Shown in pieces: positions 6,197 to 33,585 of a stretch of DNA of 34,046 bases. Source of the stretch: Dysgonamonadaceae bacterium (GTDB taxonomy: Bacteria > Bacteroidota > Bacteroidia > Bacteroidales > Azobacteroidaceae); NCBI GenBank assembly GCA_031267615.1, contig JAIRYM010000001.1, positions 1 to 34,046 of the forward strand. Reading direction: 5' to 3'. Position numbers and translations under genes: made by a program. The notes beneath the pieces are model-generated. The model did not search any database. It worked only from the letters and a program-made list of their open reading frames with translations, and was not told where the DNA came from. Numbering within the stretch: position 1 is the first letter of the stretch; every line of letters begins with the position of its first letter.

Positions 6197-6262
6197 TAAA
6201 TATTTCTGTTACTGCAAATATTAATCAGGATTGAAAAAGGTGCAAAAGACCTCAAAAATAAT

Positions 6263-6293
6263 TTTGCCGTTTCAAATTAATGTCTTACATTTG
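6263..6293 (+). promoter_or_regulatory. Promoter of the leader ORF and FISUMP-type gene
   Basis: TTTG at 6263-6266 and TACATTTG at 6286-6293, spaced 19 bp, with the leader ATGs at 6311 and 6317. It is the only consensus promoter I see upstream of the gene at 6812. Confidence 0.75.
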
Positions 6294-6316
6294 CTGCCGA
6301 TAATAACAAGATGAAA

Positions 6317-6811
6317 ATGGCAACCGAATATTTTTACAGCAGTAACTCAAAATTGACACTTAGCACGACGCGTCAGTTAATGCCATTTTACCCCCCCCCC
6401 CCCCCAATAAACGACAATACACCAGCGGATTACGTCATAATCCGTTTTGGGAAGTCCCGAAAACATTTCCTTTTTATCTGTAAAAATTCAGCTGCGGATG
6501 GAACAGTTTTTCATTCGGGCGTGAATAATTTCCGTCACGACAGGATTGTTTCCCGTCATGGCGGGAATGATTTACTCCATGGCGGGAACGTTTGCCGCCG
6601 TGGCGGGAACGATTTACTCCGTGGCGGGAACGTTTGCCGCCGTGGCGGGAACGGTTTACTCCGTGGCGGGAACGTTTGCCGCCGTGGCGGGAATGATTTA
6701 CTCCGTGGCGGGAACGTTTGCCGCCATGGCGGGAATGGTTTACTGAAAGTCCTGATAACAGCAAAAAGTAACAAAATCCATAAATATTCACTTCTAAATT
6801 TTATAAAACAA
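6317..6811 (+). CDS. Leader ORF containing the C15 tract, in frame with the downstream secreted protein
   Basis: From ATG 6317 (or 6311) the frame reads MATEYFYSSNSKL, LMPFY, five prolines from the C run, INDNTPADY, then YVIIRFGKSRKHFLF. It goes on through the 21-bp array (RRGGNDLLRGGNVC-type units) and meets the ATG at 6812 in the same frame without a stop. The matching peptide at 33377 differs partly at third codon positions on both sides of the C run. That supports a coding frame, although amino-acid changes are also frequent. Whether it is translated as an extension of the 6812 protein or is a separate regulated leader cannot be told from sequence. Confidence 0.5.
6391..6405 (+). repeat. 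Homopolymeric C15 tract (candidate phase-variation switch)
   Basis: Fifteen consecutive cytosines lie 74 bp inside the leader ORF. At this length the leader frame continues; loss or gain of one C would change the frame. The copy at 33451 has 14. Confidence 0.85.
6557..6745. repeat. Tandem array 2: nine 21-bp units in a 42-bp alternating pattern
   Basis: Nine contiguous 21-bp units share C(A/G)TGGCGGGAA(C/T)G and alternate between endings TTTGCCGC and (A/G)TTTACTC, giving a 42-bp higher-order repeat. At least one degenerate unit precedes it (6536-6556). Where a GCCGC ending meets the next unit, the sequence forms the dyad CCGCC-GT-GGCGG; at 6721-6732 it is the perfect palindrome CCGCCATGGCGG. 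Both forward frames inspected are open. Confidence 0.95.
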
Positions 6812-7663
6812 ATGAAAAAGATTCTTCTTACAATGAGCGCGCTCTTCATGTTGAGCGCAATGGGCGCTTCGGCGCAGGTAACCGTCGGATCCCTCGACGA
6901 TCCGCAGGATTTTTCAATCCTGGAACTGATTAGCAACTCCGGAGGTCTTCGGCTGCCGCAGATGACTACCGCTCAGCGCGAAACTATGCAGGAAACATCT
7001 GAATTTAAATCAAAAGCCACTGCCGATGCTATGGGTTTGCAGATCTTCAATCTCGACACCAAGTGCGTCGAGACGTGGAACGGTGTGGAGTGGATTTCCA
7101 AGTGTGCAATGTGCGGCGATCAGCCGTGCGTTTATTATCCGCCTTCAGAAGATATTACTCCCAATAGCGGCGGTATTACCACATTCACCAATGTTATGTA
7201 CGACTTTCAGCATCAAACCATTGAGGCGTACAACTTTTCAGGTACGCCTGAAAGTTACCAGTGGTACGCCAAGCGCAAAGGTGCGGCAGATACTGAATAC
7301 AAAGGAATTAGTGGTGCAACGGCTATTAATTACACCGCTCCTGCCGATTTTGTCAAAAACATTTATCAGCCCCTTGTTTCCGATAATGACGCTGATTACA
7401 ACGACAACATTATCTTTGTCTGCCTCGCAAAATATAATGATGGCACATACGAGAAAACTCCCGAAATGGACATTTTGTTTATTGGCACAAATACTGAGGG
7501 TTACGGCACAGATGAAAACGGCGTTAAATATGCTGTTTTGCAAAGCGGCACCAGCAACAGCAGCGCCTCATACTCTCTGTACTTCTTCGAAAACAACGTG
7601 TACGCCGGTATCAACAACTACGGCAAGGCGCACGGCTTTAGTGTCCGTTGTGTAGAAGATTAA
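6812..7663 (+). CDS. Secreted FISUMP-type surface protein with Ig-like middle
   Basis: 283 aa from ATG 6812, chosen because it starts the signal peptide MKKILLTMSALFMLSAMGASA, cleaved before QVTVG. Residues about 25-95 repeat the module of the gene at 460 (FSILEL, GLRLPQMT, GLQIFN, TKCVETWNGVEWIS). The middle (YQWYAKRKG, INYTAPADF, YNDNIIFVCLAKYNDG) looks like an Ig-like or PKD-type beta sandwich. The tail (GTDENGVKYAVLQ, SASYSLYFFENNVY, HGFSVRCVED) ends like a FISUMP domain but lacks the usual GYYWSSS core. It is probably an exported or outer-surface protein; the binding target is unknown. The frame is open upstream through array 2 into the poly-C leader. Confidence 0.8.
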   Translation: MKKILLTMSALFMLSAMGASAQVTVGSLDDPQDFSILELISNSGGLRLPQMTTAQRETMQETSEFKSKATADAMGLQIFNLDTKCVETWNGVEWISKCAMCGDQPCVYYPPSEDITPNSGGITTFTNVMYDFQHQTIEAYNFSGTPESYQWYAKRKGAADTEYKGISGATAINYTAPADFVKNIYQPLVSDNDADYNDNIIFVCLAKYNDGTYEKTPEMDILFIGTNTEGYGTDENGVKYAVLQSGTSNSSASYSLYFFENNVYAGINNYGKAHGFSVRCVED

Positions 7664-7739
7664 AGCCGGTGGAATGAGACCAGCCTGACTTGTCGTATCG
7701 AATATGATGTGAATGTGGCTGTAAGTGCAGTTTTTCTCC

Positions 7740-7792
7740 AGAATCGGCTATAAAATGATAAATTCTTTTATAGCCGATTCTGTGTTTTTTTT
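7740..7792 (+). terminator. Strong intrinsic terminator overlapping the gmk stop codon
   Basis: A perfect 16-bp stem (AGAATCGGCTATAAAA at 7740-7755 and its complement at 7766-7781) with a 10-base loop is followed by GTG and a run of T. It ends the + strand FISUMP gene while lying across the last codons and TAG stop of the convergent gmk gene. Confidence 0.85.
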
Positions 7793-8329
7793 TGCTTTTT
7801 CCAAATCGTCATTGACAATGATGCAGTCGTAACTGTCTGCAAGACTTAACTCATATTCTGCCTTTGCTATTCTGTCTGCAATGACTTTTGCGCTGTCTGT
7901 GCCGCGCTGTTCAAGCCTTCGCTGTAATTCTTCTATTGATGGCGGCTTAATAAAAATAAGCAATGCTTCATTGCCATATATTTTTTTGATATTCAATCCA
8001 CCTGCGACGTCAACATCAAGAATAACATTTTCGCCGCGATGCAGTCTGTCTTCTACTTCTGAACGTAGAGTTCCATAGAAGCGGTCGACATAAACTTCTT
8101 CGTATTCAAGGAAATCACCATCTTTTATTCGTTTGCGAAATTCTTCGGGCGAAAGGAAAAAATATTCCACGCCGTTTTGTTCATTGCCTCGAGGCGGACG
8201 GCTTGTTGCGGAGATGGAAAAATGCACGGAAACACCACGTTCGAGAATATGATTGATAATAGTTGACTTTCCTGAACCTGACGGAGCAGATAATATGATT
8301 AACTTTCCTTTTTTCAAATTTTTAATCAT
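7748..8329 (-). CDS. gmk: Guanylate kinase
   Basis: 193 aa, normal length. P-loop SAPSGSGKST at residues about 14-23, then the GMP-binding segment SATSRPPRGNEQNGVEYFF, FLEYEEVYVDRFYGT, the Walker B-like ILDVDVAGG and a lid segment RLEQRGTDS. It converts GMP to GDP with ATP. It begins 6 bp after the rpiB stop, so the two form an operon. Its final codons lie inside a hairpin used by the opposing gene. Confidence 0.97.
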   Translation of the reverse strand: MIKNLKKGKLIILSAPSGSGKSTIINHILERGVSVHFSISATSRPPRGNEQNGVEYFFLSPEEFRKRIKDGDFLEYEEVYVDRFYGTLRSEVEDRLHRGENVILDVDVAGGLNIKKIYGNEALLIFIKPPSIEELQRRLEQRGTDSAKVIADRIAKAEYELSLADSYDCIIVNDDLEKAKKNTESAIKEFIIL

Positions 8330-8335
8330 CTACAT

Positions 8336-8764
8336 TCAGAGAGGGATTGCATCAATTCTTGCCTTATGACGTCCGCCGTCAAAAGGCGTATTCAGAAATA
8401 TTTCAACTAATTTTTCTGCTTCAACGAGCGAAATAAAACGACCTGCGATCGAAAGAATATTAGCATCATTATGCGCTCTCGCCAGGCGGGTGATTTCTTC
8501 ATTCCAGCATAAAGCAGCACGAATGCCCTGATGTTTGTTGAGCGTCATATTGATGCCGTTTCCAGAGCCGCAGACAGCGATTCCCTTATCCACGTCTCCG
8601 GATTCTACTGCATTAGCCAACTTATGTCCGAATATAGCATAATTAGCGCTTTCAGTTGAATATGCGCCATAATCAATATATCCAATCATTCGCGATTCAA
8701 GCCACTGGCAAATGGCTTTCTTCATAAGAACTCCTGCGTGGTCAGATGCTAAACCTATTTTCAT
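8336..8764 (-). CDS. rpiB: Ribose-5-phosphate isomerase B
   Basis: 142 aa, typical RpiB/LacAB length. The start MKIGLASDHAGVLMKKAI carries the conserved SDHAG. The catalytic region GIAVCGSGNGINMTLNKHQGIRAALCW includes the active-site Cys, followed by AHNDANILSIAGRF. It interconverts ribose-5-phosphate and ribulose-5-phosphate in the pentose phosphate pathway. It leads the rpiB-gmk operon, with a -7 box at 8788-8795. Confidence 0.96.
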   Translation of the reverse strand: MKIGLASDHAGVLMKKAICQWLESRMIGYIDYGAYSTESANYAIFGHKLANAVESGDVDKGIAVCGSGNGINMTLNKHQGIRAALCWNEEITRLARAHNDANILSIAGRFISLVEAEKLVEIFLNTPFDGGRHKARIDAIPL

Positions 8765-8787
8765 ATTTGTTTGAAAAAATTGCGCTG

Positions 8788-8795
8788 CAAAGTTA
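8788..8795 (-). promoter_or_regulatory. -7 box of rpiB-gmk
   Basis: TAACTTTG on the minus strand, 23 bp before the rpiB ATG; it diverges from the + strand box at 8841. Confidence 0.6.
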
Positions 8796-8840
8796 CTAAA
8801 AAAAAAAGAAAAAATTGAGGTGTTATTTAAAAGTTTTCAT

Positions 8841-8848
8841 TACTTTTG
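8841..8848 (+). promoter_or_regulatory. -7 box of the LolD-like ABC gene
   Basis: TACTTTTG, 19 bp before the ATG at 8868. It argues against the upstream in-frame TTG at 8820 as start. Confidence 0.6.
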
Positions 8849-8867
8849 CCGAATTAAAAAATTGAAA

Positions 8868-9518
8868 ATGATTGAATGTAAACAGATAACCAAAAGTTTT
8901 GGGTTGCTAAAAGTACTTAAAGGAATTGACTTAACTGTAAATCGCGGCGAAATTGTATCAATAGTCGGACCAAGCGGTGCAGGCAAAACAACTCTGCTTC
9001 AGATTATGGGAACTCTCGACAAACCTGATTGCGGTGAAATATATTATGACGGCTTTAATATCAATAGTCTGAAAGATAAAGATCTGGCTCATTTTCGCAA
9101 TAAAAATATCGGATTTGTTTTCCAGTTTCATCAATTGTTGCCAGAATTTACTGCTCTCGAAAACGTTATGATTCCTGCACTGATAGGAAATTTTAGACAA
9201 TCGGAAGCAAAAAAATCTGCCGGCGAAATTCTTGATTTTCTTGGACTGAAAGACAGAATGGAACATAAACCTGCCGAACTTTCAGGTGGCGAAAAACAAC
9301 GTGTGGCAGTCGCCCGCGCTCTTGTGAACAAGCCTTCGGTTATCTTTGCTGACGAGCCTTCCGGGAGTCTTGATACGCAAAACAAAAATGAACTCCATCA
9401 ATTGTTTTTCGATTTGCGCCGCGAGTTTAACCAAACTTTCGTCATCGTTACTCACGACACACAACTTGCTGGAATTACCGACAGAACTGTGAAAATGCAA
9501 GATGGAACTATTCAATAG
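8868..9518 (+). CDS. LolD-like ABC transporter ATP-binding protein
   Basis: 216 aa from ATG 8868, chosen because the -7 box lies upstream at 8841. Walker [10 protein letters not shown] at residues 34-42, Q-loop [21 protein letters not shown] signature ELSGGEKQR near residue 138 and Walker [13 protein letters not shown] at 158, then the switch His in IVTHD. The size and the Q-loop wording place it in the LolD/MacB/FtsE group; LolD with LolCE releases lipoproteins from the inner membrane. No permease is adjacent, so the partner must be elsewhere. It is followed after 29 bp by the helix-hairpin-helix gene. Confidence 0.88.
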
Positions 9519-9547
9519 CACAATAAAAATCAAATTTTTATAAATGT

Positions 9548-10282
9548 ATGTGGAAAGATTTCTTTTATTTTACACACAATGAACGACAGGGAATTTTATT
9601 TCTAATTGTTTTTGTTGCAGGAATTTTTGTAGGTAAATTCTTCTTTACTCCAAAATTCGTTCCTGTAGATATTTTTGAGACGACAGAACAAATAACGACA
9701 AAAGAACAGTATCCTTCTGAACACAACAAAGTGAAACAGACACCAATAAATAAACAGACTGCTAGCGTAAAGCCTGTAAAAAGCAGCCAACAGAGCGAAT
9801 CGCGAACTTATTACCATCAGCAGGAACAGCCTGTCCAACGGACACAAAATCAATATCCTGTTCAGAATAAATATCCCAAAGGCACTGTCATTGAACTCAA
9901 TACAGCTGACACGACTAAACTGAAAATGATTCCGGGCATTGGCTCGTCGTTTGCAAAAAAGATTGTAGGCTATCGCGGTATATTAGGCGGATATTATAGC
10001 AAAGAACAGTTGCAGGAAGTCTATGGAATGTATGCAGAACTCTACGATAAGATTGTGCCATATTTTCACATTGACACCACGCTGATTACGCCAATCGCAG
10101 TAAACACCGCTTTATTAGACAGGCTAAAAGCGCATCCCTATCTTGATTTTTATCAGGCAAAAGCAATAATAGAATTAAGAAAGAAACGAAGTAAAATAAA
10201 CAGTATAGGTGATTTGGAACTCCTGGAAGAATTTACTCAAGAAAATTTGGAAAAAATCAGGCATTACCTTGATTTCCATTGA
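9548..10282 (+). CDS. Membrane-anchored helix-hairpin-helix (ComEA-like) protein
   Basis: 244 aa. A short cytoplasmic start (MWKDFFYFTHNERQG) leads into one transmembrane helix (ILFLIVFVAGIFVGKFFF), then a Gln/Ser/Thr-rich linker to about residue 110. Next are helix-hairpin-helix motifs: VIELNTADTTKLKMIPGIG, with SFAKKIVGYRGILGGY, and later LDRLKAHPYLDFYQAKAIIELR with INSIGDLELL. Such domains bind DNA without sequence specificity. Anchored forms resemble ComEA, the DNA receptor for uptake, but related proteins of unknown role are widespread in Bacteroidota. It is probably cotranscribed with the LolD-like gene. Confidence 0.85.
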   Translation: MWKDFFYFTHNERQGILFLIVFVAGIFVGKFFFTPKFVPVDIFETTEQITTKEQYPSEHNKVKQTPINKQTASVKPVKSSQQSESRTYYHQQEQPVQRTQNQYPVQNKYPKGTVIELNTADTTKLKMIPGIGSSFAKKIVGYRGILGGYYSKEQLQEVYGMYAELYDKIVPYFHIDTTLITPIAVNTALLDRLKAHPYLDFYQAKAIIELRKKRSKINSIGDLELLEEFTQENLEKIRHYLDFH

Positions 10283-10284
10283 AC

Positions 10285-11181
10285 TTACATTCTCAATTTC
10301 ATTCCTGCAAACAAAGTATCAGGTTTCAGCGCCATCACGCTGTGCATCTCGCCTGCCATACAAAAACCGCAACTGTCGCAAAGTCCTTTGCTGTCGCCGT
10401 CGCACATTGGAAGGCGACTGCCATCGACGAGTATAAAATTCGATACCCAGCACTGTTTCTTAAACTTGTTGTGTTTCATAAGTCTAAGTCCTGATACAGA
10501 ATTGATAATCGGATATTTTTTCTGTTTGTATTCAATCAGTTTGTCAATTATTTGTCGGCGTATTTCCCAATCAAGAAACAGATCTTCGGTATCAGGATAA
10601 GGTGTATGAAAATTAAATGAAATTGCCTCTATATTAGGGTTTTGTTTGACAAATTCCAAAGTATCATCAACCGAAGAATAATTGACGGTATTGATAACCA
10701 TATTAACATTCAAATGTTTATGCCCGGAATATGCTATATTTTTTACTAATTTGTCAAATGCGCCTGCTCCGCGAATTTTGTCGTGATATTCTCCGATGCC
10801 GTCGAGACTTATCCACAGCGAATCCGCTTCAAGTCCGTCAAACGGACGGACTGCATTTGTCGTAATGGTAGTTGAAAAAAATCCTGTTTCCTTCGCTAAT
10901 CGCACCAGTGAATTGATGTCGCGTTTACCATCGCGCCATAAAGTTGGCTCGCCACCTTCAAAATCGACAAATCGCGAACCAAGACGATAGCAATATTCAA
11001 GATCATCTTTTATTTGTTCAAATGACTTGACTGTCGGTGTTTTTCGCGCATAAACACAGCAATGACGGCATTTCAAATTACACAAATCAGAAATAAATAC
11101 AACAGACTGTAACGGTTGCCGTTTCCCAAAAAACTTTACTTTTAGAAACCAAAGAGGAAGATACAGAGACTGGAACTTCAT
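10285..11181 (-). CDS. Radical SAM protein with C-terminal cysteine cluster
   Basis: 298 aa from ATG 11181, selected because the -7 box at 11205-11212 lies just upstream; the open frame continues to 11319. The SAM-binding cluster is CNLKCRHC (Cys34, 38, 41), followed by FVDFEGGEPTLW, ITTNAVRPF and LWISLDGIG, all typical of the radical SAM barrel. The C-terminus has CWVSN and CDGDSKGLCDSCGFC, which may hold an auxiliary iron-sulfur cluster as in SPASM-type enzymes. The substrate is unknown. It diverges from the frameshifted membrane gene at 11361; I cannot show that they share a pathway. Confidence 0.85.
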   Translation of the reverse strand: MKFQSLYLPLWFLKVKFFGKRQPLQSVVFISDLCNLKCRHCCVYARKTPTVKSFEQIKDDLEYCYRLGSRFVDFEGGEPTLWRDGKRDINSLVRLAKETGFFSTTITTNAVRPFDGLEADSLWISLDGIGEYHDKIRGAGAFDKLVKNIAYSGHKHLNVNMVINTVNYSSVDDTLEFVKQNPNIEAISFNFHTPYPDTEDLFLDWEIRRQIIDKLIEYKQKKYPIINSVSGLRLMKHNKFKKQCWVSNFILVDGSRLPMCDGDSKGLCDSCGFCMAGEMHSVMALKPDTLFAGMKLRM

Positions 11182-11204
11182 TTTGTGAATTTTAATATTT
11201 GAAA

Positions 11205-11234
11205 CAAAGGTAATAAAAATAAATACACAACAAA
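11205..11234 (-). promoter_or_regulatory. Promoter of the radical SAM gene
   Basis: On the minus strand TTTG (11234-11231) and TACCTTTG (11212-11205) are spaced 18 bp, 23 bp before the ATG at 11181. Confidence 0.7.
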
Positions 11235-11268
11235 TTGTACATTTAGCGAAAGGCGTATTTATCTGTAA

Positions 11269-11300
11269 TTTGACAATTTCAAAAGAAAACAGTACCTTTG
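11269..11300 (+). promoter_or_regulatory. Promoter of the polytopic membrane protein
   Basis: TTTG at 11269-11272 and TACCTTTG at 11293-11300, spaced 20 bp. Between it and the ATG at 11361 lies a short inverted repeat, ACACAC-T-GTGTGT (11314-11326). Confidence 0.65.
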
Positions 11301-11360
11301 CCTCATATCTGGAACACACTGTGTGTAGCGTGTACTGACGTTTTAGAGAAAAAAATATTT

Positions 11361-12781
11361 ATGAAGCAGTGCAAAATTGATTATTGCATAATAGCATTAT
11401 TAACAAGTATTTATCTGTTCTTTCCCTCTATCAACCCCACAGGCGATGTTGTCGCTTATGCAGTAAATGTGCGCGAAGGTTCCGACTTGTTTATGCCCCA
11501 TCATTTGCTTTATAATGCCTTTGGATATGCAGTGGCGCGGATTTTTGGCATTGTTAATACAATGATTTGAATCAGGTACTCACCGCGATGTTTGCCGTCG
11601 GGTGTCTTCTGATAATGAAAATTATTCTTAAACGACTTTCTGTAAGTCACATATCCGTGATAATACTCGCTGTTGGCTCGTGCTACGGCTTTATGCGCTA
11701 TGCTGTTTCAGGAGAAACATACATCATTCCGCTGTTTTTTTCTTTGCTTGCAAGTCTGTGCGCTTTACATTACAATAGCCGCATCTGGTTGACAGGTTTA
11801 TTAGCCTCAATTGCCTGTCTGTTTCATCAGATTCATTTTTTCTGGTGGGCAGGATTATTCGTTTATATACTGATTACCAACAAAGAAAGACGTTGTTATG
11901 CGTTTTTTGTATATTCTCTTGTATCCTGTATAGTTCCTGCGGTATATTTACTCGTTTATTATCTTACTCCAAACGATGCGTCCGGTTTTTTCGATTTCAT
12001 CTTCTATGATTATTTTCATCGCAGTGGCGTCAGTTTTAATATCGGTTTACGCAGCCTCTACCTTACTCCCGTCAGTTTAGTACGCACCTTTTTCCAGGTT
12101 CACGGTTATATTGTACCGCTTGTTATGAAACATCGTATTTTGCTCTTATCTGCCGGCGCAGTAGTCGCTCTGCTTGCATTTCCTGTTTTTAAATGCAAGT
12201 CATTGTTTAGGCGGGCAGACGTAACTTCTGTCGAAAAGAAGTTCGGTATCTGTCATCTGCTTATTTTTGCCTTGCAGTTGCTTTTTGCTGCCGGTTCAGC
12301 GGGCAATGCCGAGTTTATGGTAATGCTGCCTTTCGCGCTTTTGCTGTTTTGTGCTTCACGATTCAGAATCTCTGTTTGTTATGTGCCGGTCGCCGCAGGT
12401 CTGTTTATTTGGAATCTCTCTTTCGCCGTAATACCGTTTCACTGTTTGGAAATGACGCCCGATAAAGCCGTTGTGCGTTATATCGAACAGCATCCGGACA
12501 GGACTTACTGTCTCTTTGACCGACAAACAGCAGAATCCACGCTCCGTTATCGCAATCCGGCTTCTGTTTTTCATCTGTACAAAGGCATAGACTCGCTGCA
12601 TCCGCTTCTTGATCGAGGAGTTGCAGTTACAACTGACTTTTGGTCGCCGCGTCATCTTTCGCGCTCCACTATTCTAAATGACAATAAACAAGTTTTACCC
12701 GCTTCAGTTTTAATAAATCAAGATAGCATCCCTTACGACCTTGGTACGTTGATATTGTCTACAATTCAAATTATAATGTAG
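11361..12781 (+). pseudogene. Polytopic membrane protein (GT-C glycosyltransferase-like), split by a frameshift
   Basis: The first part starts at ATG 11361 (MKQCKIDYCIIALLTSIYLF) and has PTGDVVAYAVNVREG then LFMPHHLLYNAFGYAV, a loop pattern seen in lipid-linked-sugar glycosyltransferases. It stops at a TGA at 11568-11570. The second part opens at TTG 11567 and continues with about nine hydrophobic helices to the TAG at 12779-12781, including LFHQIHFFWWAGLFVYI. A one-base deletion (or two-base insertion) at about 11552-11570 joins the two into one product of about 470 aa. The TTGA overlap could allow coupled translation, but the split falls within a membrane domain, so a broken gene or sequencing error is more likely. 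Array 3 starts at its stop codon. Confidence 0.7.
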
Positions 12782-12947
12782 CCGTTTCCCATTATAATGT
12801 AGATGTTTCCCATTATAATGTAGATGTTTCCCATTATAATGTAGACGCTTCCCATAACAATGGAAATGATTCCCATAACAATGGAAATGATTCCCATTAT
12901 AATGGAAATGTTTCCCATAACAATGGAAATGATTCCCATAAAAAATG
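12779..12947. repeat. Tandem array 3: eight 21-bp units with a palindromic core
   Basis: Eight contiguous units of 21 bp (the last 22) built on (TAG/GAA)A(T/C)G(T/A)TTCCCAT followed by TATAATG or AACAATG. The left half uses TAGATG and the right half GAAATG. The core CATTATAATG is a perfect palindrome; at 12894-12905 it extends to CCATTATAATGG. The variant form CCAT-AACA-ATGG keeps the outer arms. The first unit starts at the TAG stop codon of the upstream gene, whose last codons (ATT ATA ATG) already match the unit end. It lies between that gene and the rpsG terminator. Confidence 0.95.
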
Positions 12948-12970
12948 AAATGCAAAAGGTACGAAATAAA

Positions 12971-13004
12971 AAAAGGAGCAGTCTTTTGAGACAGCCCCCT
13001 TTTT
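12971..13004. terminator. Terminator of the rpsL-rpsG operon (bidirectional)
   Basis: An imperfect hairpin, GCAGTCT-TTTG-AGACAGC with one mismatch, is flanked by A-rich sequence on the left and T-rich sequence on the right. On the minus strand it ends in a run of seven T after the rpsG stop; in the + direction it has CCCCCTTTTT. Confidence 0.7.
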
Positions 13005-13025
13005 ATGGCTTAAAATTTTGTTTTA

Positions 13026-13502
13026 TTAAAAGCGGAAATGTGCAAAAGCGCGGTTTGCTTCCGCCATACGGTGCATATCTTCCTTGCGTTTGAATGCTCC
13101 ACCCTGGTTGTTGAAAGCATCAACAATTTCTGCCGAAAGTTTGTCCGACATTGATTTGCCGTTACGCTTGCGCGAAAAAGAAATCAGGTTTTTCATCGAA
13201 ATTGATTCTTTTCTGTCGGGGCGAATTTCTGTAGGAACTTGAAATGTTGCTCCACCTATACGACGTGATTTTACTTCCACAAGTGGAGTAATGTTGTCGA
13301 GCGCCTGTTTCCAGATTTCGAGTGGGGATTTCGTTTCGTTGGCGAGTTTGGTTTTTACCTTGTTTAACGCTGAATAAAAGATGTCGAAAGCGGTGCTTTT
13401 TTTACCGTCGTACATCAGATGGTTTACGAACTTCGTTACCTTTTGGTCTCCAAAGACAGGGTCCGGAAGAACCTGTCTTTTCTTTGGTTTTGTCTTTCTC
13501 AT
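13026..13502 (-). CDS. rpsG: 30S ribosomal protein S7
   Basis: 158 aa, full length. Diagnostic segments are [40 protein letters not shown], a conserved Arg/Lys-rich [16 protein letters not shown] and the C-terminal [22 protein letters not shown]7 nucleates assembly of the 3' domain of 16S rRNA. It follows rpsL after 76 bp. Unusually, fusA does not come next: the gene is followed at once by a terminator, array 3 and an opposing gene. Confidence 0.98.
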
Positions 13503-13578
13503 TCTGTTTTTTAAAATTGGCTGTTAATTACTTGGTCTTCAACGAGCTTCTTGTAACTCATTTACTCAACCGTTTTCT

Positions 13579-13995: not shown

Positions 13996-14035
13996 TTTAT
14001 AAATAAATATTTACTGTTTTTTTACTTTCGGGCTG

Positions 14036-14065
14036 CAAAGTTAAAAATAATTTTTGGAATGACAA
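14036..14065 (-). promoter_or_regulatory. Promoter of rpsL-rpsG
   Basis: On the minus strand TAACTTTG (14043-14036) lies 40 bp before the rpsL ATG, with TTG (14065-14063) 19 bp upstream as a partial -33 box. Confidence 0.65.
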
Positions 14066-14130
14066 TAGGTTGTTGCGAAAAATAATATATTTTTTTACAG
14101 AATTAAAGAATGCAGTTATGAAAAAATTAT

Positions 14131-22439: not shown

Positions 22440-22644
22440 GGTTCGGCGTATGATGTTTTTCTGCTGTACAAGTGTTGCACGTTCCGGCGTTCAATGTTTT
22501 TCTGCTGTGCAAGTGTTGCACGGTTCAGAGTTCAAGGTTTTTGTGCTGTGCAAGTGTTGCATATTCCGGCGTGCAATGTTTTTTTGCCGTAAAGATGTTG
22601 CACGGTTCAGAGTTCGATGTTTTTTTGCTGTGAGATTGTACATA
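22440..22644. repeat. Tandem array 4: five 41-bp units with a hyphenated dyad
   Basis: Five units of exactly 41 bp. Each has a GTTC(C/A)GGCGT or GTTCAGAGT-type start, a T5-7 run, GCTGT and a 15-bp dyad, perfect in unit 2 as GTGCAA-GTG-TTGCAC (22507-22521). Units 1 and 3 have one change in the dyad; units 4 and 5 are degenerate. Units 3 and 5 share the GGTTCAGAGT start and units 2 and 4 the TTCCGGCGT start, giving an 82-bp alternation. The array ends 5 bp from the ygiQ stop codon. Confidence 0.93.
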
Positions 22645-27649: not shown

Positions 27650-27666
27650 TGCGATATTTTTTTTGG

Positions 27667-27674
27667 CAAAGGTA
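27667..27674 (-). promoter_or_regulatory. -7 box of the helicase-nuclease-ygiQ operon
   Basis: TACCTTTG on the minus strand, 17 bp before the ATG at 27649; it fixes the start below the long open frame. Confidence 0.65.
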
Positions 27675-27708
27675 AGAAAAAATGAATGACCGTCAAATAT
27701 TTTATTCG

Positions 27709-27716
27709 TACCTTTG
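27709..27716 (+). promoter_or_regulatory. -7 box of tgt, five bases from the start codon
   Basis: TACCTTTG followed by TCATC and the tgt ATG at 27722. The expected transcription start falls at or next to the ATG. Confidence 0.65.
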
Positions 27717-27721
27717 TCATC

Positions 27722-28849
27722 ATGAAATTTCAGCTTCAGCACACTGACAAATTGACAAATGCCCGTGCCGGTCTCATCACAACATCTCACGGAGAAATAA
27801 CTACACCGGTTTTCATGCCGGTAGGCACACAGGGCTCCGTCAAAGCAGTTCACTTTCGCGAATTACAAGACGACATTAATGCGCAGATCATACTTGGCAA
27901 CACATACCATCTCTATCTTCGTCCGGGCATTAAAATACTGGAACAGGCAGGCGGGATTCACAGGTTCATCCATTGGGATCGTCCCATTCTAACCGACAGT
28001 GGCGGCTATCAAGTCTTTTCGCTTCGCAATAATCGCAAACTTCACGAATCCGGAGCCGAGTTTCGCTCACATATTGATGGTTCCCGGCATCTGTTTACAC
28101 CCGAAAGCGTAATAGATATTGAGCGCAGCATTGGAGCAGATATTATCATGGCGTTTGACGAATGTACGCCAGGTGATGCCGATTACGAGTATGCCCGTCG
28201 CTCATTAGAATTAACGGAACGCTGGCTTGACAGATGTTTTCAGCGTTTCAGCGAAACAGAACCGAAATATGGGTATCATCAAAGTCTTTTCCCGATAGTT
28301 CAGGGTTGCGTCTATAATGATTTGCGGCGTCGTGCAGCAGAAAAAGTTGCGTCCCAAGATGCTGACGGTAACGCTATCGGTGGACTCGCAGTCGGCGAAC
28401 CAATCGAAAAGATGTATGAGATGATTGAGCTTGTCAATGAAATCCTGCCAAAAGAAAAACCGCGTTACCTGATGGGCGTAGGTACACCTGCCAATCTTCT
28501 CGAAGCAATTGAGCGCGGCGTTGACATGTTCGACTGCATTATGCCGACACGCAACGGTCGCAACGGTCAGTTGTTTACATACGACGGCATTATCAATATA
28601 AAAAATAAGAAGTGGGAAAACGATTTCAGTCCGATTGAAAGCGGAGGAGCATCTCTGTTGGACGAGTTTCATAATAAAGCATACTTGCATCACCTGTTTT
28701 CCGTAAGTGAAATTCTCGGCTTGCAAATAGCCTCGATTCACAATCTTGCGTTTTATATGCGGCTGGTTGGCGATGCCCGCAAACATATTATTGAAGGAGA
28801 TTTTGCGCAATGGAAAGCGGCAGTTTTACCTCGGTTGCAACAAAGATAA
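27722..28849 (+). CDS. tgt: Queuine (preQ1) tRNA-ribosyltransferase
   Basis: 375 aa from ATG 27722, which matches the normal family start MKFQLQHTDKLTNARAG; the frame is open to 27686. Family motifs are FMPVGTQGSVK, ILGNTYHLYLRPG, RPILTDSGGYQVFSL (catalytic Asp), IMAFDECTPGDADYEY, the substrate loop GGLAVGEP, YLMGVGTPANLLEAIERGVDMFDCIMPTRNGRNG and the C-terminal IASIHNLAFYMRLV. It swaps guanine for preQ1 at the wobble base of GUN-anticodon tRNAs. The usual zinc CxCxxC motif of this family is not obvious, as in related Bacteroidota sequences. Confidence 0.97.
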   Translation: MKFQLQHTDKLTNARAGLITTSHGEITTPVFMPVGTQGSVKAVHFRELQDDINAQIILGNTYHLYLRPGIKILEQAGGIHRFIHWDRPILTDSGGYQVFSLRNNRKLHESGAEFRSHIDGSRHLFTPESVIDIERSIGADIIMAFDECTPGDADYEYARRSLELTERWLDRCFQRFSETEPKYGYHQSLFPIVQGCVYNDLRRRAAEKVASQDADGNAIGGLAVGEPIEKMYEMIELVNEILPKEKPRYLMGVGTPANLLEAIERGVDMFDCIMPTRNGRNGQLFTYDGIINIKNKKWENDFSPIESGGASLLDEFHNKAYLHHLFSVSEILGLQIASIHNLAFYMRLVGDARKHIIEGDFAQWKAAVLPRLQQR

Positions 28850-28899
28850 TATGCTCACAGATCATCTCGCTGTTACGGCGATTAATAATTAATTATATC

Positions 28900-29430
28900 T
28901 CATATTAAAATAAACGCGAGCGGAATAAGCAACCCTGCAATAAGATACCATTTTCCATAGCCTTTGATTCCGTGTTTTCCGCGCGTGATGAAAAGTCCTG
29001 AAAAAGCGAGAAAAATCAGTGAACCGGCAAAAATATCTGCGACTGGAGTCCAGCCGTTCACGCGGCTGTAATGCAAACGATTTATCCAATAAATTATTAT
29101 TCGTTTATGGTGCAGTTCATAATCAATATGTCCGTCGGTAGAATTATAGATACCGATTCCACCTTCGAGCATCAGGCGCAGATGAGTTTCATCAACGGAC
29201 ATAATTTTATTTATTTTAGGCAAGTTTTTTTTCTCGTTCCATGCAGTTTCAAGCGATTGCAAAGTCAGATTCGGCGGCAGTTGCAATGAAGCCTCTACAG
29301 TACGGAAAGCAGGGTCTCCGCCGCCCAGATGATTGAGGTAAATGCCCGAAATGCCATAGACAAGTGAAATGCCGACTACAAGAAATCCCAAGTTGCGATG
29401 AATAACTCGTAACCAATGTCTGATACCCAT
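28900..29430 (-). CDS. PepSY-associated transmembrane protein, small
   Basis: 176 aa from ATG 29430; an upstream in-frame TTG at 29463 would overlap the preceding gene by 17 bp. An N-terminal helix (LGFLVVGISLVYGISGIYLNHL) is preceded by WLRVIHRN, and two C-terminal hydrophobic segments follow (VADIFAGSLIFLAFSGLFI, WYLIAGLLIPLAFILI). HYSRVNGWTPVADIFAG matches the PepSY-associated TM family. The soluble middle (about 40-115) is expected on the outside. The function of these small members is unknown, although larger relatives accompany iron uptake. It is cotranscribed with the lipoprotein gene upstream. Confidence 0.75.
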   Translation of the reverse strand: MGIRHWLRVIHRNLGFLVVGISLVYGISGIYLNHLGGGDPAFRTVEASLQLPPNLTLQSLETAWNEKKNLPKINKIMSVDETHLRLMLEGGIGIYNSTDGHIDYELHHKRIIIYWINRLHYSRVNGWTPVADIFAGSLIFLAFSGLFITRGKHGIKGYGKWYLIAGLLIPLAFILI

Positions 29431-29446
29431 TTGTATAAGTGATTTA

Positions 29447-29995
29447 TTATTCAACGACGGCAAAATTTTGTCCGTCCATATAAAATATGGAATAATATTC
29501 TTTGCCGTTGTCCTTCATCCACTGCCGCATCGCGTTGATATTACTTAATTCGGCGGCGCACGATTCGGCAGTGCCATCTTCCTCTTTCTTCATCTCAACA
29601 TCTTTTTCCATCTGCGATATATATTCTTTCGTAAGACGATGTTCTTTGACTGTGCCAGTAACTTCAATCTTTGAACCGACAAGTTCACGGTTGAATCCGC
29701 CTATTTCACCTTTTGCCTCAATTCGCATAGAGCCTTTCTGAGATTCGCCGACCATAAAGCAGCGTTTGCCTGAATGTTTGCAGGTATGAGTAACATATCC
29801 CACAACCGTTACGTTTTTATCCACCTGTGTTTCAGCCATGTTCAACAGACTGTCGAGAGGATACACTGAAAGATTCTCGGCAGCAGAAGTTACGACAGGT
29901 TCGCTTTCTGAATTTTTGTCCGATTTTTTACTGTCATTGCAAGAAAACGTTGCGATGGCAAAAACTGTGAATAATAAAAGATTCCGTTTGTTCAT
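29447..29995 (-). CDS. Lipoprotein with an OB-fold-like domain
   Basis: 182 aa from ATG 29995. A lipoprotein signal (LLLFTVFAIATFSC) puts the acylated Cys at about residue 19, followed by a charged Ser/Lys/Glu linker. The core (VDKNVTVVGYVTHTCKHSGKRCFMVGE, SMRIEAKGEIGGF, VGSKIEVTGTVKEHRLTKEYI) has the strand pattern of an OB-fold, with a CxxxxxxC pair that could form a disulfide or bind a ligand. The C-terminal WMKDNGKEYYSIFYMDGQ is unassigned. It leads a two-gene operon with the PepSY-type protein, suggesting a joint role at the membrane. Confidence 0.75.
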   Translation of the reverse strand: MNKRNLLLFTVFAIATFSCNDSKKSDKNSESEPVVTSAAENLSVYPLDSLLNMAETQVDKNVTVVGYVTHTCKHSGKRCFMVGESQKGSMRIEAKGEIGGFNRELVGSKIEVTGTVKEHRLTKEYISQMEKDVEMKKEEDGTAESCAAELSNINAMRQWMKDNGKEYYSIFYMDGQNFAVVE

Positions 29996-30019
29996 TATAA
30001 AATTGGTTGAAAATATGAG

Positions 30020-30027
30020 CAAAGATA
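30020..30027 (-). promoter_or_regulatory. -7 box of the lipoprotein-PepSY operon
   Basis: TATCTTTG on the minus strand, 24 bp before the ATG at 29995. Confidence 0.6.
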
Positions 30028-30057
30028 CGGCTATTTCTTATAATCACCAAAATACCG

Positions 30058-30086
30058 TTGCAAATCGGAATTTATGAATACCTTTG
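30058..30086 (+). promoter_or_regulatory. Promoter of the TIGR02757-type gene
   Basis: TTG at 30058-30060 and TACCTTTG at 30079-30086, spaced 18 bp; the ATG follows at 30126. Confidence 0.6.
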
Positions 30087-30125
30087 GGGTGAAATATAAG
30101 TAAAAAATTATTTTATAATAACATT

Positions 30126-30878
30126 ATGAACGACGTTAAAGATTTTCTCGACGAGCAGGTTATACGTTTCAACACACAATCTTTTATCAAAAACGATCCG
30201 GTACAATTTCCACGTAGATACAGCAAATTACAGGATATTGAGATAACGGCTTTCGTGGTAGCGACAATTTCGTGGGGTAAACGATCTGTGATTCTGCGCA
30301 ATGCAGAAAAACTGCTCGTAATGTGGGGCGACAGTCCGTATGATTTCATTATGAATGAAGACTATCGCGCACTCGGCAGAGCAAATATCCACCGTACGTT
30401 TTTTGAACACGACTTGGCATATATGTTGCGTGGATTCAGACAAATTTTTATAAAATACGGAAGCATTGAGAATATGCTTAAAGCCAATGAAATAGAACTG
30501 TCTATCGCACCGGCATGGGATTTTGCAGGCGTTTTATCGGCAGAAATGCAGCAGGCAAATGACGGACAAAACAACAGTAAATGTTACCCTTCAAACTATA
30601 AACACAGCGCATTGAAACGTATAAATATGGCCTTGCGGTGGCTTGTCAGAGATGACGGGATTGTTGATTTGGGAATATGGAAATCTATTAACCCAAGTCA
30701 GTTATATATTCCACTTGATGTTCACGCAGGAAATATTGCTCGTGAACTTGGATTATTGCGCCGCAACAGCAACGACCGTCATGCAGTAGAAGAACTTACC
30801 TCTGTTTTACGTCAATTTTGTCCGGAAGACCCTATTAAGTATGACTTTGCATTGTTCGGCACAGGTGTAAGTCGGTGA
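30126..30878 (+). CDS. TIGR02757-family conserved protein
   Basis: 250 aa, soluble, no signal peptide. Recognised by ITAFVVATISWGKRSVILRNAEKLL, YMLRGFRQIFIKYGSIE, LKRINMALRWLVRDDGIVDLGIW, IPLDVHAGNIARELGLL and the end FCPEDPIKYDFALFGTGVSR. Members are widespread in Bacteroidota; the helical pattern ending in a D-HAG-x-A-R-LGL segment suggests a DNA-glycosylase-like fold, but no activity is established. It is followed by topA, which has its own promoter. Confidence 0.8.
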   Translation: MNDVKDFLDEQVIRFNTQSFIKNDPVQFPRRYSKLQDIEITAFVVATISWGKRSVILRNAEKLLVMWGDSPYDFIMNEDYRALGRANIHRTFFEHDLAYMLRGFRQIFIKYGSIENMLKANEIELSIAPAWDFAGVLSAEMQQANDGQNNSKCYPSNYKHSALKRINMALRWLVRDDGIVDLGIWKSINPSQLYIPLDVHAGNIARELGLLRRNSNDRHAVEELTSVLRQFCPEDPIKYDFALFGTGVSR

Positions 30879-30927
30879 AAATATTTTAATTTTCTTATAA
30901 AACAATATATCTTTCCGCAATTTTTAT

Positions 30928-30935
30928 TACTTTTG
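30928..30935 (+). promoter_or_regulatory. -7 box of topA
   Basis: TACTTTTG, 27 bp before the ATG at 30963; it rules out the in-frame upstream TTG at 30933. Confidence 0.6.
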
Positions 30936-30962
30936 CGCCCAAATCAAAGATTTAAAAACAAT

Positions 30963-33290
30963 ATGCAAAAGAATCTCGTAATCGTAGAATCACCTGCTAA
31001 AGCAAAAACTATCGAAAAATTTCTTGGTTCTGACTACAAAGTGCTGTCGAGTTACGGGCATATCCGTGACCTTCGAGAAAAAGGCATGGGTGTTGATGTT
31101 CAACACGATTTCAAACCCGATTACATTATTTCGCCGGAAAAGGAAACAATTGTAGAAAATCTGAAGAAAGCAGCAAAAGAAGCAGAAATGGTCTGGCTCG
31201 CTTCCGATGAAGACCGCGAAGGAGAAGCCATTTCGTGGCATTTGTCAGTCGTTCTCGACTTGAATAATAAAACATCAAAACGTATTGTATTTCACGAGAT
31301 TACTAAAAATGCCATAATCGCAGCAATAGAGAATCCTCGCGACATTAACATAAATCTCGTAAATGCACAGCAGGCGCGGCGAGTACTTGACAGAATAGTG
31401 GGGTTTGAACTGTCGCCTGTCTTGTGGAAAAAAATTATGCCGTCGCTTTCGGCAGGGCGGGTGCAGTCAGTAGCTGTGCGCCTCATTGTTGAGCGCGAGC
31501 GGGAAATCAATCAATTCAGCGCAGAAGCATTTTTCCGAGTAACTGCCGAATTTCTGTTGCAAGATGGAAAGTCGCTGTTGAAAGCCGAACTGAATAAACG
31601 ATTTGCAACCGAAAAAGAAGCACAATCATTTCTTGAATCTCTTATCGATGCTAAATTTACCGTAGAAGATGTAACACAAAAGCCCGGCAAAAAATCGCCT
31701 GCTCCACCGTTTACAACCTCAACGCTTCAACAGGAAGCATCGCGCAAACTCGGTTTCTCGGTTGCTCAAACAATGTCGGTTGCACAAAAACTCTACGAAG
31801 CAGGGCAAATTACATATATGCGTACCGACTCGCTCAATCTTTCGTCGCTTGCTCTTGGCGCAGCAAAAAAGGAAATCACAGAAGAGTTTGGAGAAAAATA
31901 TCTGAAAATACGTCAATATCATACCAAAGCAAAAGGCGCACAGGAAGCGCACGAAGCGATTCGCCCAACATATATTGCCAACCGCGAAATCAAAGGTACG
32001 GCGCAAGAACAGAAATTATATGAACTGATTTGGAAACGCACCGTAGCGTCGCAAATGGCTGACGCAGCAACAGAACGTACTACAATAACGATCAACATAA
32101 ATTCAAGGAAAGAAAAATTTATCGCAAATGGCGAGGTAATACGTTTTGATGGATTTTTGCGAGTATATAATGAAAGCAAAGACGACGAAACACAAGACGA
32201 GAACGCAGAAGCAATATTGCCGTCCGTTTTGGTTAACGAAATACTCTCGCTTGGAACGGCGGCGGCTGTTGAACGGCTCACACAACGCCCGTTCCGTTAT
32301 ACCGAAGCAAGCCTTGTACGAAAGATGGAAGAACTTGGCATAGGACGCCCTTCCACTTATGCACCTACGATTTCAACCATTCAACAGCGCGGCTATGTCA
32401 TCAAAGGCAGCAAAGAAGGCGAACATCGCACATTTGTTACGCTCTTGTTGAAAAACGGCAAAGTTGATAAAAAAACAAAACCGGAACTTGTTGGTGCAGA
32501 TAAAGGCAAATTAATGCCCACTGATTCAGGTATAATAGTCAACGATTTCCTGACAGCAAATTTTCCAAAAGTACTTGATTATAACTTCACAGCAAATATT
32601 GAAAAAGATTTTGACAGTATAGCTGACGGCAAAGTTATATGGACAGACACTTTGAATAATTTCTACAAACTTTTTCATCCTGTTGTAATTGCCGTTGCGG
32701 ATTCAAAATCAGAGATGAAAGTTGGCGAGCGCTCGCTCGGTAACGATACGAAGACAGGAAAACCGGTTTCCGTAAAAATTGGACGTTTCGGCCCGTTCGT
32801 ACAGATAGGTTTGGCAGACGAGAAGGATAAACCACAATTTGCTTCGCTTGCAAAAGGACAGTCGATAGAAACCATCACGCTCGAAGAAGCGCTGAAACTG
32901 TTTGACTTGCCACGCACCGTTGGCGAAATCGACGGCAAGGAAGTTACATCTTCGGTAGGGCGTTTCGGACCATATATAAAAATTGACAGTACATTTGTTT
33001 CGATTCCAAAAAGTAGTGACCCATACAGCATAACCATTGATGAAGCTCGCAAACTGCTCGAAGAAAAAGCGCAGAAAGAAGCAAACAAACTCATTAAATC
33101 TTTCACAGAAGAACCGGAAATGCAGATACTTAATGGACGGTACGGACCTTACATTTCTTACAATAAATTAAATTACAAGATTCCTCGCGGCAAAAAGCCT
33201 GAAATGCTGACTTACGAAGAAACAAAACAAATAATTGAATCGGCGCCTAAAAAAGAAAATAAAAAGAGGAAAGCGAAGAAAGTTAATTAG
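30963..33290 (+). CDS. topA: DNA topoisomerase I
   Basis: 775 aa. The Toprim domain shows NLVIVESPAKAKTIEKFLG at the N-terminus and the metal-binding DEDREGEAISWHL near residue 82. The active-site tyrosine is Tyr285 in ITYMRTDSLNLS. GRPSTYAPTISTIQQRGY lies in domain IV. The C-terminus has four short topoisomerase C-terminal repeats (for example GRFGPFVQIG, GRFGPYIKID, GRYGPYISY) rather than Cys4 zinc fingers, and a basic tail, KKENKKRKAKKVN. It relaxes negative supercoils. Confidence 0.97.
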   Translation: MQKNLVIVESPAKAKTIEKFLGSDYKVLSSYGHIRDLREKGMGVDVQHDFKPDYIISPEKETIVENLKKAAKEAEMVWLASDEDREGEAISWHLSVVLDLNNKTSKRIVFHEITKNAIIAAIENPRDININLVNAQQARRVLDRIVGFELSPVLWKKIMPSLSAGRVQSVAVRLIVEREREINQFSAEAFFRVTAEFLLQDGKSLLKAELNKRFATEKEAQSFLESLIDAKFTVEDVTQKPGKKSPAPPFTTSTLQQEASRKLGFSVAQTMSVAQKLYEAGQITYMRTDSLNLSSLALGAAKKEITEEFGEKYLKIRQYHTKAKGAQEAHEAIRPTYIANREIKGTAQEQKLYELIWKRTVASQMADAATERTTITININSRKEKFIANGEVIRFDGFLRVYNESKDDETQDENAEAILPSVLVNEILSLGTAAAVERLTQRPFRYTEASLVRKMEELGIGRPSTYAPTISTIQQRGYVIKGSKEGEHRTFVTLLLKNGKVDKKTKPELVGADKGKLMPTDSGIIVNDFLTANFPKVLDYNFTANIEKDFDSIADGKVIWTDTLNNFYKLFHPVVIAVADSKSEMKVGERSLGNDTKTGKPVSVKIGRFGPFVQIGLADEKDKPQFASLAKGQSIETITLEEALKLFDLPRTVGEIDGKEVTSSVGRFGPYIKIDSTFVSIPKSSDPYSITIDEARKLLEEKAQKEANKLIKSFTEEPEMQILNGRYGPYISYNKLNYKIPRGKKPEMLTYEETKQIIESAPKKENKKRKAKKVN

Positions 33291-33320
33291 TAGCGTCCTG
33301 AAAAAAATCATCAAAAAATT

Positions 33321-33351
33321 TTTGCAGTTTCAATATTTTATATTACCTTTG
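33321..33351 (+). promoter_or_regulatory. Promoter of cassette copy 2
   Basis: TTTG at 33321-33324 and TACCTTTG at 33344-33351 with 19-bp spacing, the same geometry as copy 1; the leader ATG is at 33377. Confidence 0.75.
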
Positions 33352-33376
33352 CACCCGTTAATAACAAAAAAATAAA

Positions 33377-33469
33377 ATGGCAACTCATTACTTCTACAGC
33401 AGTAACTCAAAATTGATACTCAATATGACGTGTCAGTTAATGCCATTTTACCCCCCCCCCCCCCAATAA
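33377..33469 (+). CDS. Leader peptide ORF, closed by the C14 tract
   Basis: 30 codons: MATHYFYSSNSKLILNMTCQ, LMPFY, four prolines, Gln, then TAA just after the C run. It matches the leader at 6317. With one more C the frame would read PINAKTSTGYVIIRFGKSRK and continue without a stop through the array to the ATG at 33829. Translation is inferred, not shown. Confidence 0.5.
   Translation: MATHYFYSSNSKLILNMTCQLMPFYPPPPQ
33451..33464 (+). repeat. Homopolymeric C14 tract (candidate phase-variation switch, closed register)
   Basis: Fourteen consecutive cytosines inside the leader ORF, one fewer than in copy 1. Confidence 0.85.
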
Positions 33470-33585
33470 ATGCCAAAACATCAACGGGTTATGTCATAAT
33501 CCGTTTCGGGAAATCCCGAAAACATTTCCTTTTAAATAATAATAATTCAGCTATGGATGCAAATAGTTTTCATTCAGGCTGGAAG

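Follow-up and report, generated by a model that had tools for sequence, protein, structure and literature searches.

A multicopy promoter-leader cassette with a poly-C tract inside its leader reading frame, and its possible role in slippage-dependent expression of exported-type proteins in a Dysgonamonadaceae bacterium

Results

Two copies of a promoter-leader cassette lie on one contig

The DNA stretch analysed here (the window, 34,046 nucleotides) is contig 92 (C92) of a Dysgonamonadaceae bacterium, which is represented by one assembly, a 2.13 Mb genome bin of 128 contigs that is 87.6% complete. In topoisomerase sequence, its nearest named relatives are metagenome-assembled genomes labelled Dysgonamonadaceae, Candidatus Azobacteroides and Tannerella, with 68-78% identity in the best segments. 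The window contains two copies of a cassette in which a promoter is followed by a short leader open reading frame (ORF) with a run of cytosines, by predicted hairpins, by an array of 21-bp units and by a gene. An earlier note on this DNA had described two matching stretches with a shared block, and they indeed match over about 260 bp with 80% identity, the promoter boxes, the leader, the C run and the shared block being located where it had placed them. The 19-bp promoter spacing and the run of 14-15 cytosines were seen in both copies (C15 in copy 1, C14 in copy 2), and the arrays that follow the two copies, at 6548-6744 and 33582-33770, are different, as had been reported. Runs of eight C occurred 15 times in the window as overlapping matches, compared to 0.11 expected. 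The features of the two copies are as follows.

6263..6293, + strand: copy 1 promoter (TTTG at 6263-6266, 19 bp, TACATTTG at 6286-6293)
6317..6390, + strand: copy 1 leader ORF 5' of the C run (ATG at 6317; MATEYFYSSNSKLTLSTTRQLMPFY)
6391..6405, + strand: copy 1 C15 tract, putative slippage site; leader open
6406..6547, + strand: copy 1 post-C block, with predicted hairpins H2 (about 6425-6445) and H3 (6445-6462, terminator-like)
6548..6744, + strand: copy 1 array of 21/42-bp units, RHGGNDLLHGGN type
6812..7663, + strand: family A gene, 283 aa, with a signal-peptide-like start and the end ...FSVRC; in frame with the leader at C15
33321..33351, + strand: copy 2 promoter (TTTG at 33321-33324, 19 bp, TACCTTTG at 33344-33351)
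33377..33450, + strand: copy 2 leader ORF (ATG at 33377; MATHYFYSSNSKLILNMTCQLMPFY)
33451..33464, + strand: copy 2 C14 run; leader stop TAA at 33467-33469
33465..33581, + strand: copy 2 post-C block, with predicted hairpins H2 (about 33484-33504) and H3 (about 33504-33521)
33582..33770, + strand: copy 2 array of 21-bp units, LQSSTKV type
33829..34046, + strand: start of a family B gene (MSSQDYIPRTEEDFFNWS...), truncated by the contig end

Some parts of the earlier description had to be modified. The leader ORF is present in both copies, and 24 of its codons precede the C run. The shared coding block is also present in both; its peptide YVIIRFGKSRKHFL shares the frame of the leader ATG in copy 1 (C15) but not in copy 2 (C14), where the leader frame meets a TAA 5 nt past the C run. 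The two downstream genes, which had been called unrelated, do belong to different families (A and B), but in other copies A and B share one operon. The central point missed was that the C run, being located inside the leader ORF, may set whether translation reads through to the array and the gene.

The cassette is repeated in the genome with a conserved promoter and leader

When copy 1 was used as a DNA query, matches were found at no fewer than 40 places in the own 2.1 Mb bin (E ≤ 1e-3), a lower bound because the best 40 of 64 candidates were scored. This rules out a local duplication absent elsewhere in the genome, the alternative that the earlier note had named. Copy 2 matched at least 13 own-genome places, and these 13 strong copies have distinct flanks. 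We analysed 41 copies: the 40 matches of copy 1 and the copy on contig C117, which was identified by reading upstream of an A gene. The copies are paralogues, and counts across them are not independent events; the C-run length of each locus is one assembly consensus and may be off by one. The typical order is promoter, 24-codon leader, C run, hairpins, array of 21-bp units and gene. Among own-genome C runs of ten or more with a preceding base, all 27 listed by a pattern search lie in cassettes (25) or in junk that directly follows a cassette at the ends of contigs C51 and C77 (2); one further long C run at the extreme end of C77 is also junk.

The box TANNTTTG is present in 34 of the 41 copies, with TTTG 18-20 bp upstream in 33 of them and at exactly 19 bp in 25. 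We take this promoter to be of the Bacteroidetes type, judging from the consensus of such promoters. The identity between copies stays at 0.25-0.29, which is the chance level, up to 50 bases before the -7 box and climbs only from the promoter. In the copies that could be read together with their gene, the promoter is oriented towards the gene.

In 31 copies, 72 nt of the leader can be aligned with no gap. No in-frame stop was found in 28 distinct copies, while the other two frames contain stops in 28/28 and 23/28, and the ratio of nonsynonymous to synonymous differences (pN/pS) is 0.52 in frame versus 0.84 and 0.86 in the other frames. The leader also contains a conserved stem (AATTGACRC/GYGTCAGTT); the top four of all scanned 6-bp stems belong to this one helix and are 96-98% paired. 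The leader statistics exclude C51 (gapped, at a contig end), C18 (cut), and C87_28518 and C44, in which the leader is fused to the array.

One of the three frames behind the tract is open through the array

The tract is C12-C16 in most copies with post-C blocks of types 1 and 3, C6-C8 in type 2 and (CA)5-38 in another class of leaders described below. In each case the unit is not a multiple of three and the tract is sited within a leader ORF that has its own start. In most type-1 copies, a TAA lies no more than 5 nt behind the C run in one of the frames. A second frame closes shortly beyond H3, after about 24-26 codons, and the third is open. In the 27 copies that combine an array with five or more C, the longest frame crosses the array without a stop in 27/27, and both other frames stop before it in 25/27. 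In the assembly, the stop is no more than 35 nt past the run in 25 of the 29 readable leaders (one of these stops precedes the run) and at +75 in another, and the three leaders of C92 copy 1, C125 and C36 are open; C77 and five copies without a repeat were excluded from this classing. Since 25 of the 29 leaders stop early, most loci would be in the OFF state as assembled. All three frame states, i.e. early (25), middle (1) and open (3), thus occur across copies that are paralogues and not alleles.

H2 and H3 are both predicted to fold in 15 of 18 type-1 copies, H3 beginning about 40 nt past the C run, and by eye types 2 and 3 carry different hairpins at the same position. Comparison of the frame positions with the predicted hairpins revealed that an early-stop leader ends before the hairpin, whereas an open leader reads into or beyond it. 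Terminator-like hairpins were found in the window (6445-6462), at an own-genome (CA)n locus (L204, 588-610) and in the related genome G007. An Rfam scan of five sources at gathering level gave no matches.

At its far end, the open frame stops 15-112 nt past the array and before the gene in most poly-C copies. In C87_20014 it runs past the gene start, out of frame.

The 21-bp arrays are diverse in sequence and constant in period

An array was detectable in 29 of the 41 copies, and its best period within the range 9-60 was 21 or 42 in 29/29. The remaining 12 copies are without an array, six of them being cut by a contig end. We compared 35 arrays, namely those of the 29 copies, two further arrays of the window and four of the related genome G008. 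Below 15/21 identity their units fall into 14 types, ten from the own genome and four from G008. The summed dyad strength of the units was 58.5, compared to 44.7 ± 3.5 after shuffling, and the highest of 500 shuffles equals it. Folding of the array RNA was stronger than that of dinucleotide shuffles (mean z -4.5 over the 35 arrays) and mildly stronger than that of tandem arrays of permuted units (mean z -1.1).

A functional repeat peptide encoded by the arrays was considered and is disfavoured, as no common peptide is seen by eye across the unit types and the post-C block is without purifying selection.

Insertion sequences are apparently located inside or at 21-bp arrays in three places: window 1-119 (minus strand), C36 (L030), where the array appears to be interrupted, and C72 (L024). 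Those of the window and C36 begin MQTRKQELYFEEVIRLHDEYGYGER, and we presume that this is a transposase.

The same layout recurs with other repeats and other leader sequences

Six leaders of the own genome have (CA)n in place of the C run and lie 5' of A or of a B-A pair (MKKINTNIALFYASYLAVPDILLNTHTH and similar). All six stop before +60 as assembled, and a terminator-like hairpin is present near +70 downstream of the leader stops, four of six being found by pattern search and the other two by eye. In the five (CA)n leaders that lack an array, the open frame enters gene A in frame (5/5). The (CA)n leaders L204, L205, L206, L208 and L213, 5' of family A genes in the same genome, are unrelated in sequence to the cassette.

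Among leaders without any repeat, 6/6 (C44, C87_28518, C46, C37, and L231 and L233 of G008) have a visible sequence that is open from the ATG to the end of the array; that of C44 is truncated by the contig end. Overall, this would be expected if the ON state were translation through the array. An ATG-started ORF that is open through a 21-bp array is also present between a B-like gene and A in G008 (L236, C35), with no promoter or repeat in view.

Reading upstream of A homologues and at C runs revealed the layout in relatives. When copy 2 was compared with 57 other genomes (the best 13 candidates being scored in each), a match was found in 18, nearly all of them within the first 72 bases, i.e. 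the promoter and the leader start, and one confined to the C run. In G008 (L218) and G009 (L172), (CA)n tracts with other leader sequences precede 21-bp arrays. G007 has a C14 leader of unrelated sequence 5' of an A gene, whose frames stop at +9, +29 and +427, with a GC-rich stem followed by T7 at +117 to +186. G028 has promoter-near C15-C19 leaders (e.g., MNKVINRL), and its other C runs lie in other contexts. Runs of C11 are present in 25 of the 38 genomes of the genus.

Two further observations concern C runs in relatives. In G028, runs of 14-20 C are followed by a common flank, ATTTTAACRTTTATTAACRCTTCGGG, in at least three places (L244, L288, L303). In G019 (L078, contig C151), a C11 run lies, by eye, in a glycosyltransferase-like ORF, which is the classic layout of a contingency locus.

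The cassette precedes two gene families

Among the 30 copies whose downstream side is in view, 13 are located before family A and 13 before family B. The other four precede a BspA-type repeat protein (C28, PF13306), a degenerate A (C124), a small unrelated ORF (C9) and no nearby gene (C71_13599). Of the remaining 11 copies, nine are cut by contig ends (C27 right at the start codon) and two are interrupted by insertion sequences. A follows B in all four B copies with enough DNA (C71, C64, C39 and C117, B being shortened in C64 and C117), and six further A genes are by eye preceded by the end of a B gene (L202, L203, L205, L209, L211, L212). A and B therefore appear to form B-A operons where enough DNA is visible.

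Family A proteins have a signal-peptide-like start and the sequence QVTIGSL..., and are of the exported type by sequence. The family has 39 own-genome matches and is present in 27 of the 38 genomes of the genus, the own genome included. An FGE-sulfatase domain (PF03781, E 1.9e-47) was identified in one A protein; the A protein of the window gave no Pfam or NCBIfam match, and the one complete family B gene scanned gave no Pfam match. The ends of the other A genes, that of the window included, look variable. The A gene behind the cassette on C83 (L009) seems to be without the usual start codon.

Several family A genes carry variable repeats of a diversity-generating retroelement

Contig C20 of the same genome carries the following locus.

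L308 (G000:C20), 179-2027: HRDC ORF, template repeat (735-850) and reverse transcriptase (1044-2027)

The reverse transcriptase (PF00078, E 7e-20) and the HRDC ORF (PF00570, E 6.6e-9) flank the template repeat GGSWNNNANNCRVSNRNNNNPYNRNNN. The end of FGE-type A genes reads RVxRGGSW...GFRVVCR and contains many NNC codons, and the template DNA matches 17 variable repeats elsewhere in the genome (two extra hits of 17-21 bases were not counted). In these 17 repeats the template adenines are changed at 270 of 525 positions, compared to 85 of 1342 other positions. Behind the C41 cassette, the variable repeat is changed at 16 template adenines and at none of 79 other sites; the one that follows the (CA)5 leader of C84 is changed at 18 adenines and nowhere else. 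With its reverse transcriptase, adjacent template and repeats that differ at template adenines, the locus is a diversity-generating retroelement (DGR).

Seven of the 17 variable repeats are in A genes behind cassettes (C41, C114, C30, C8, C71 via B, and C87) or behind a (CA)n leader (C84); the C87 locus is without promoter and leader as assembled. The variable repeat of C37 is about 1.5 kb downstream of a leader without repeat and of the array of this leader, and no ORF of 90 codons contains it. That of C112 has no leader in view, and the eight others have a 5' end that falls outside the contig or within a truncated B-A operon. The suggestion that the cassette is a copied expression unit for variable genes is supported by its 40 or more genomic places, by the exported type of A and by the DGR variable repeats in several A genes. 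A similar reverse transcriptase (E ≤ 1e-20) was found in 5 of 37 relatives, with 52% identity at best; G008 and G009 were not among them.

A second reverse transcriptase, with 35% identity to the first and an IGNYLSQ motif, was observed on contig C58 (L309, G000:C58, 233-802 and 1276-2283). Because it adjoins a phage major capsid protein E (PF03864), it is perhaps part of a phage-borne retroelement.

Discussion

A slippage-switched leader as the proposed mechanism

We propose, with a probability of roughly 0.7, that the cassette is a slippage-switched leader ORF through which translation would gate the expression of the downstream operon, similarly to pil1 of Streptococcus gallolyticus. The promoter would give an mRNA that begins with the short leader ORF, and replication slippage in the C run of living cells would change its length by one base and so select one of three frames. 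In two of the frames the ribosome would meet a stop codon about 3 to 90 nt on, ahead of the array; in the commonest state this stop would also precede the two hairpins. In the third frame, the presumed ON state, translation would cross both the hairpins and the entire array and end shortly before, at or inside the B-A or A gene. Translation of the hairpins and the array would keep the RNA open and avert premature termination or masking of the gene start, allowing the operon to be expressed. Termination at the hairpins, termination at the array and masking of the start are all candidates for the gating step.

In the passages of Danne et al. (2014, PMC3894217) drawn on here, pil1 and pil3 of S. 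gallolyticus undergo phase variation through a GCAGA-repeat leader with attenuation-like control; the short pil1 leader stops 39-49 bp before a stem-loop/terminator, and slippage to a long leader that ends within or beyond it gives more transcription. As far as these passages describe pil1, the cassette resembles it in having a simple repeat in a leader ORF, where slippage would shift the stop, the commonest early stop here being 34 nt before H3. Compared with the same passages, it differs in the repeat (C or (CA)n instead of GCAGA), in its number (40 or more copies in a single genome, not two loci), in having hairpins followed by 4-18 units of a 21-bp array, and in its targets, which are A/B operons, some of them DGR targets. 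In the open-licence literature searched, pil1 was the sole case of leader attenuation found, and nothing was found on Azobacteroides leaders.

Several observations weigh against the proposed switch. The open frame was picked as the longest of the three, and its openness is therefore partly due to selection; the informative part of the frame test is that two frames are closed before the array while the third crosses 4-18 units. The selection signal in the leader is weak by column permutation (16 of 200 permutations were equally low), and the peptide of the post-C block, with a pN/pS of 0.95 (null mean 0.88), is not under purifying selection. Terminator-like sites in the scanned regions are not clearly above shuffled sequences (2 vs 2.0, 4 vs 2.6 and 1 vs 1.9), and the type-1 H3 is without a strong T tract. 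Unit type C7 and the single arrays of C87_28518 and C122 are not more structured than shuffles, and the L236 array of G008 is less structured than shuffles (z +4.2). L239 of G008, which has three CA units left, stops before its array, contrary to the pattern of the six repeat-less leaders. Within-species variation in tract length is not seen in the single assembly consensus. Finally, the open frame joins the gene in frame in copy 1 of the window (C92a), in C74 and in five (CA)n copies and stops before the gene in most others, and no single coupling rule emerges.

Alternative explanations

The in-frame joins just mentioned would also be expected if leader, repeat and gene formed one plain phase-variable ORF, its ON form being an N-terminally extended A or B protein and the hairpins and arrays acting as linkers. 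The joins in C92a, C74 and all five array-less (CA)n leaders fit this idea; however, the five are close paralogues and therefore not independent, the open frame ends before the gene in most poly-C copies and runs out of frame in C87_20014, and an extension would bury the signal-peptide-like start of A. We consider this explanation unlikely.

The arrays could instead be DNA sites bound by a dimeric regulator, 21 bp being two helical turns, with the C run tuning the spacing or being a by-product. The invariant period, the 14 unit types and the dyad score are what such sites might look like. Yet no motif common to the unit types was seen, 21 bp is also seven codons, the arrays are stop-free in the open frame in all 27 copies and lie inside the expected transcript, and the C runs are placed within an ungapped ORF. 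A DNA-binding role in place of the translational switch is thus rather improbable.

The earlier note had suggested a mobile or copied cassette, and a mobile or MITE-like promoter cassette inserting 5' of genes would account for the 40 or more dispersed copies, the sharp 5' edge at the promoter and the unrelated upstream flanks. Still, 26 of the 30 copies with a downstream view precede just two families, and inspection by eye revealed no ends, terminal or target-site repeats and no linked transposase. The leader and post-C types also reassort, which fits gene conversion: all four combinations of the leader types SSN and KNSQ with post-C types 1 and 3 occur (SSN-1 in 13 copies, SSN-3 in 2, KNSQ-1 in 3 and KNSQ-3 in 1), implying that copies have exchanged parts with a breakpoint between the leader and the post-C block, at the site of the C run. 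C41_7017, C87_20014, C44 and C46 resemble deletions or fusions near this breakpoint. A comparison with empty sites was void rather than negative because relatives do not share the order of genes around gmk or after topA: LpxK was within 1.5 kb of gmk at 0 of 29 loci from 28 other genomes, and the gene after topA differs, by eye, in the five relatives readable there (L089-L092, L094) and in the distant L095, while L093 ends at topA. Mobility appears very unlikely; duplication and gene conversion, by which the cassette would have spread along with its genes, are the simpler explanation. Across species of the genus, guanylate kinase does not keep the same neighbours (L258-L287), which hints at heavy rearrangement.

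Chimeric assembly at C runs, which the 128 contigs, many of them ending in a copy, and the G-rich junk after C51 and C77 might suggest, is highly improbable given the 13 strong copies with distinct flanks and the related genomes that have the same layout with other sequences.

Two possible layers of diversification

Coming back to the slippage-switched leader, the overlap between its targets and the DGR repeats suggests that the same proteins would be subject to both slippage switching and targeted hypermutation. We tentatively suggest, at somewhat less than even odds, a two-layer system in which one reverse transcriptase rewrites at least 17 dispersed variable repeats that lie at the end of exported-type proteins, slippage in poly-C or (CA)n picks the few that are made, and the 21-bp dyad arrays constitute a new translation-gated RNA element ruled by a seven-codon period, a stop-free frame and self-pairing. 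If this is true, an uncultured lineage related to gut symbionts would adjust the sequence (DGR) and the expression (slippage) of a variable protein repertoire separately, and minisatellites that resemble junk would have a role. The proteins could be located at the cell surface, and such variation may be of benefit to the bacterium. Leaders of this design, though unrelated in sequence, are also present in related species, which points to a grammar of leader ORF, slippery repeat, hairpin and stop-free 21-bp array. The combination of a DGR with slippage was not found in the open-licence literature searched.

Homopolymer contingency loci are represented by the poly-C and poly-G genes of Neisseria and Campylobacter. 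The cassette is similar to these in using long C runs as the putative switch and in the many loci per genome. Unlike in contingency loci, however, its tract is located in a conserved separate leader and not in the antigen gene or its promoter spacer.

For the retroelement, the passages of two sources drawn on here describe HRDC as a DGR accessory (PMC10053308) and DGRs with remote targets (PMC8144416). Judged against these passages, the present element is alike in its reverse transcriptase, template repeat, HRDC neighbour (PF00570) and C termini with adenine-directed changes. It differs in that the targets here are remote and several of them lie behind slippage-type leaders; this concerns the downstream proteins, not the cassette.

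Other features of the window

Two further 21-bp arrays are present in the window.

120..371, + strand: 21-bp array of another type, 5' of a frame-broken A-family gene; no cassette part in view
12768..12952, + strand: cassette-free 21-bp array of the SHYNVDV type at the 3' end of ORF 11567-12781; unit type as in C5, C23 and C29

The latter array could form a C-terminal SHYNVDV-repeat tail of the membrane-protein-like ORF, in a shifted frame. In addition, a tandem repeat of 41/82 bp that differs from the 21-bp arrays is located at 22453-22632.

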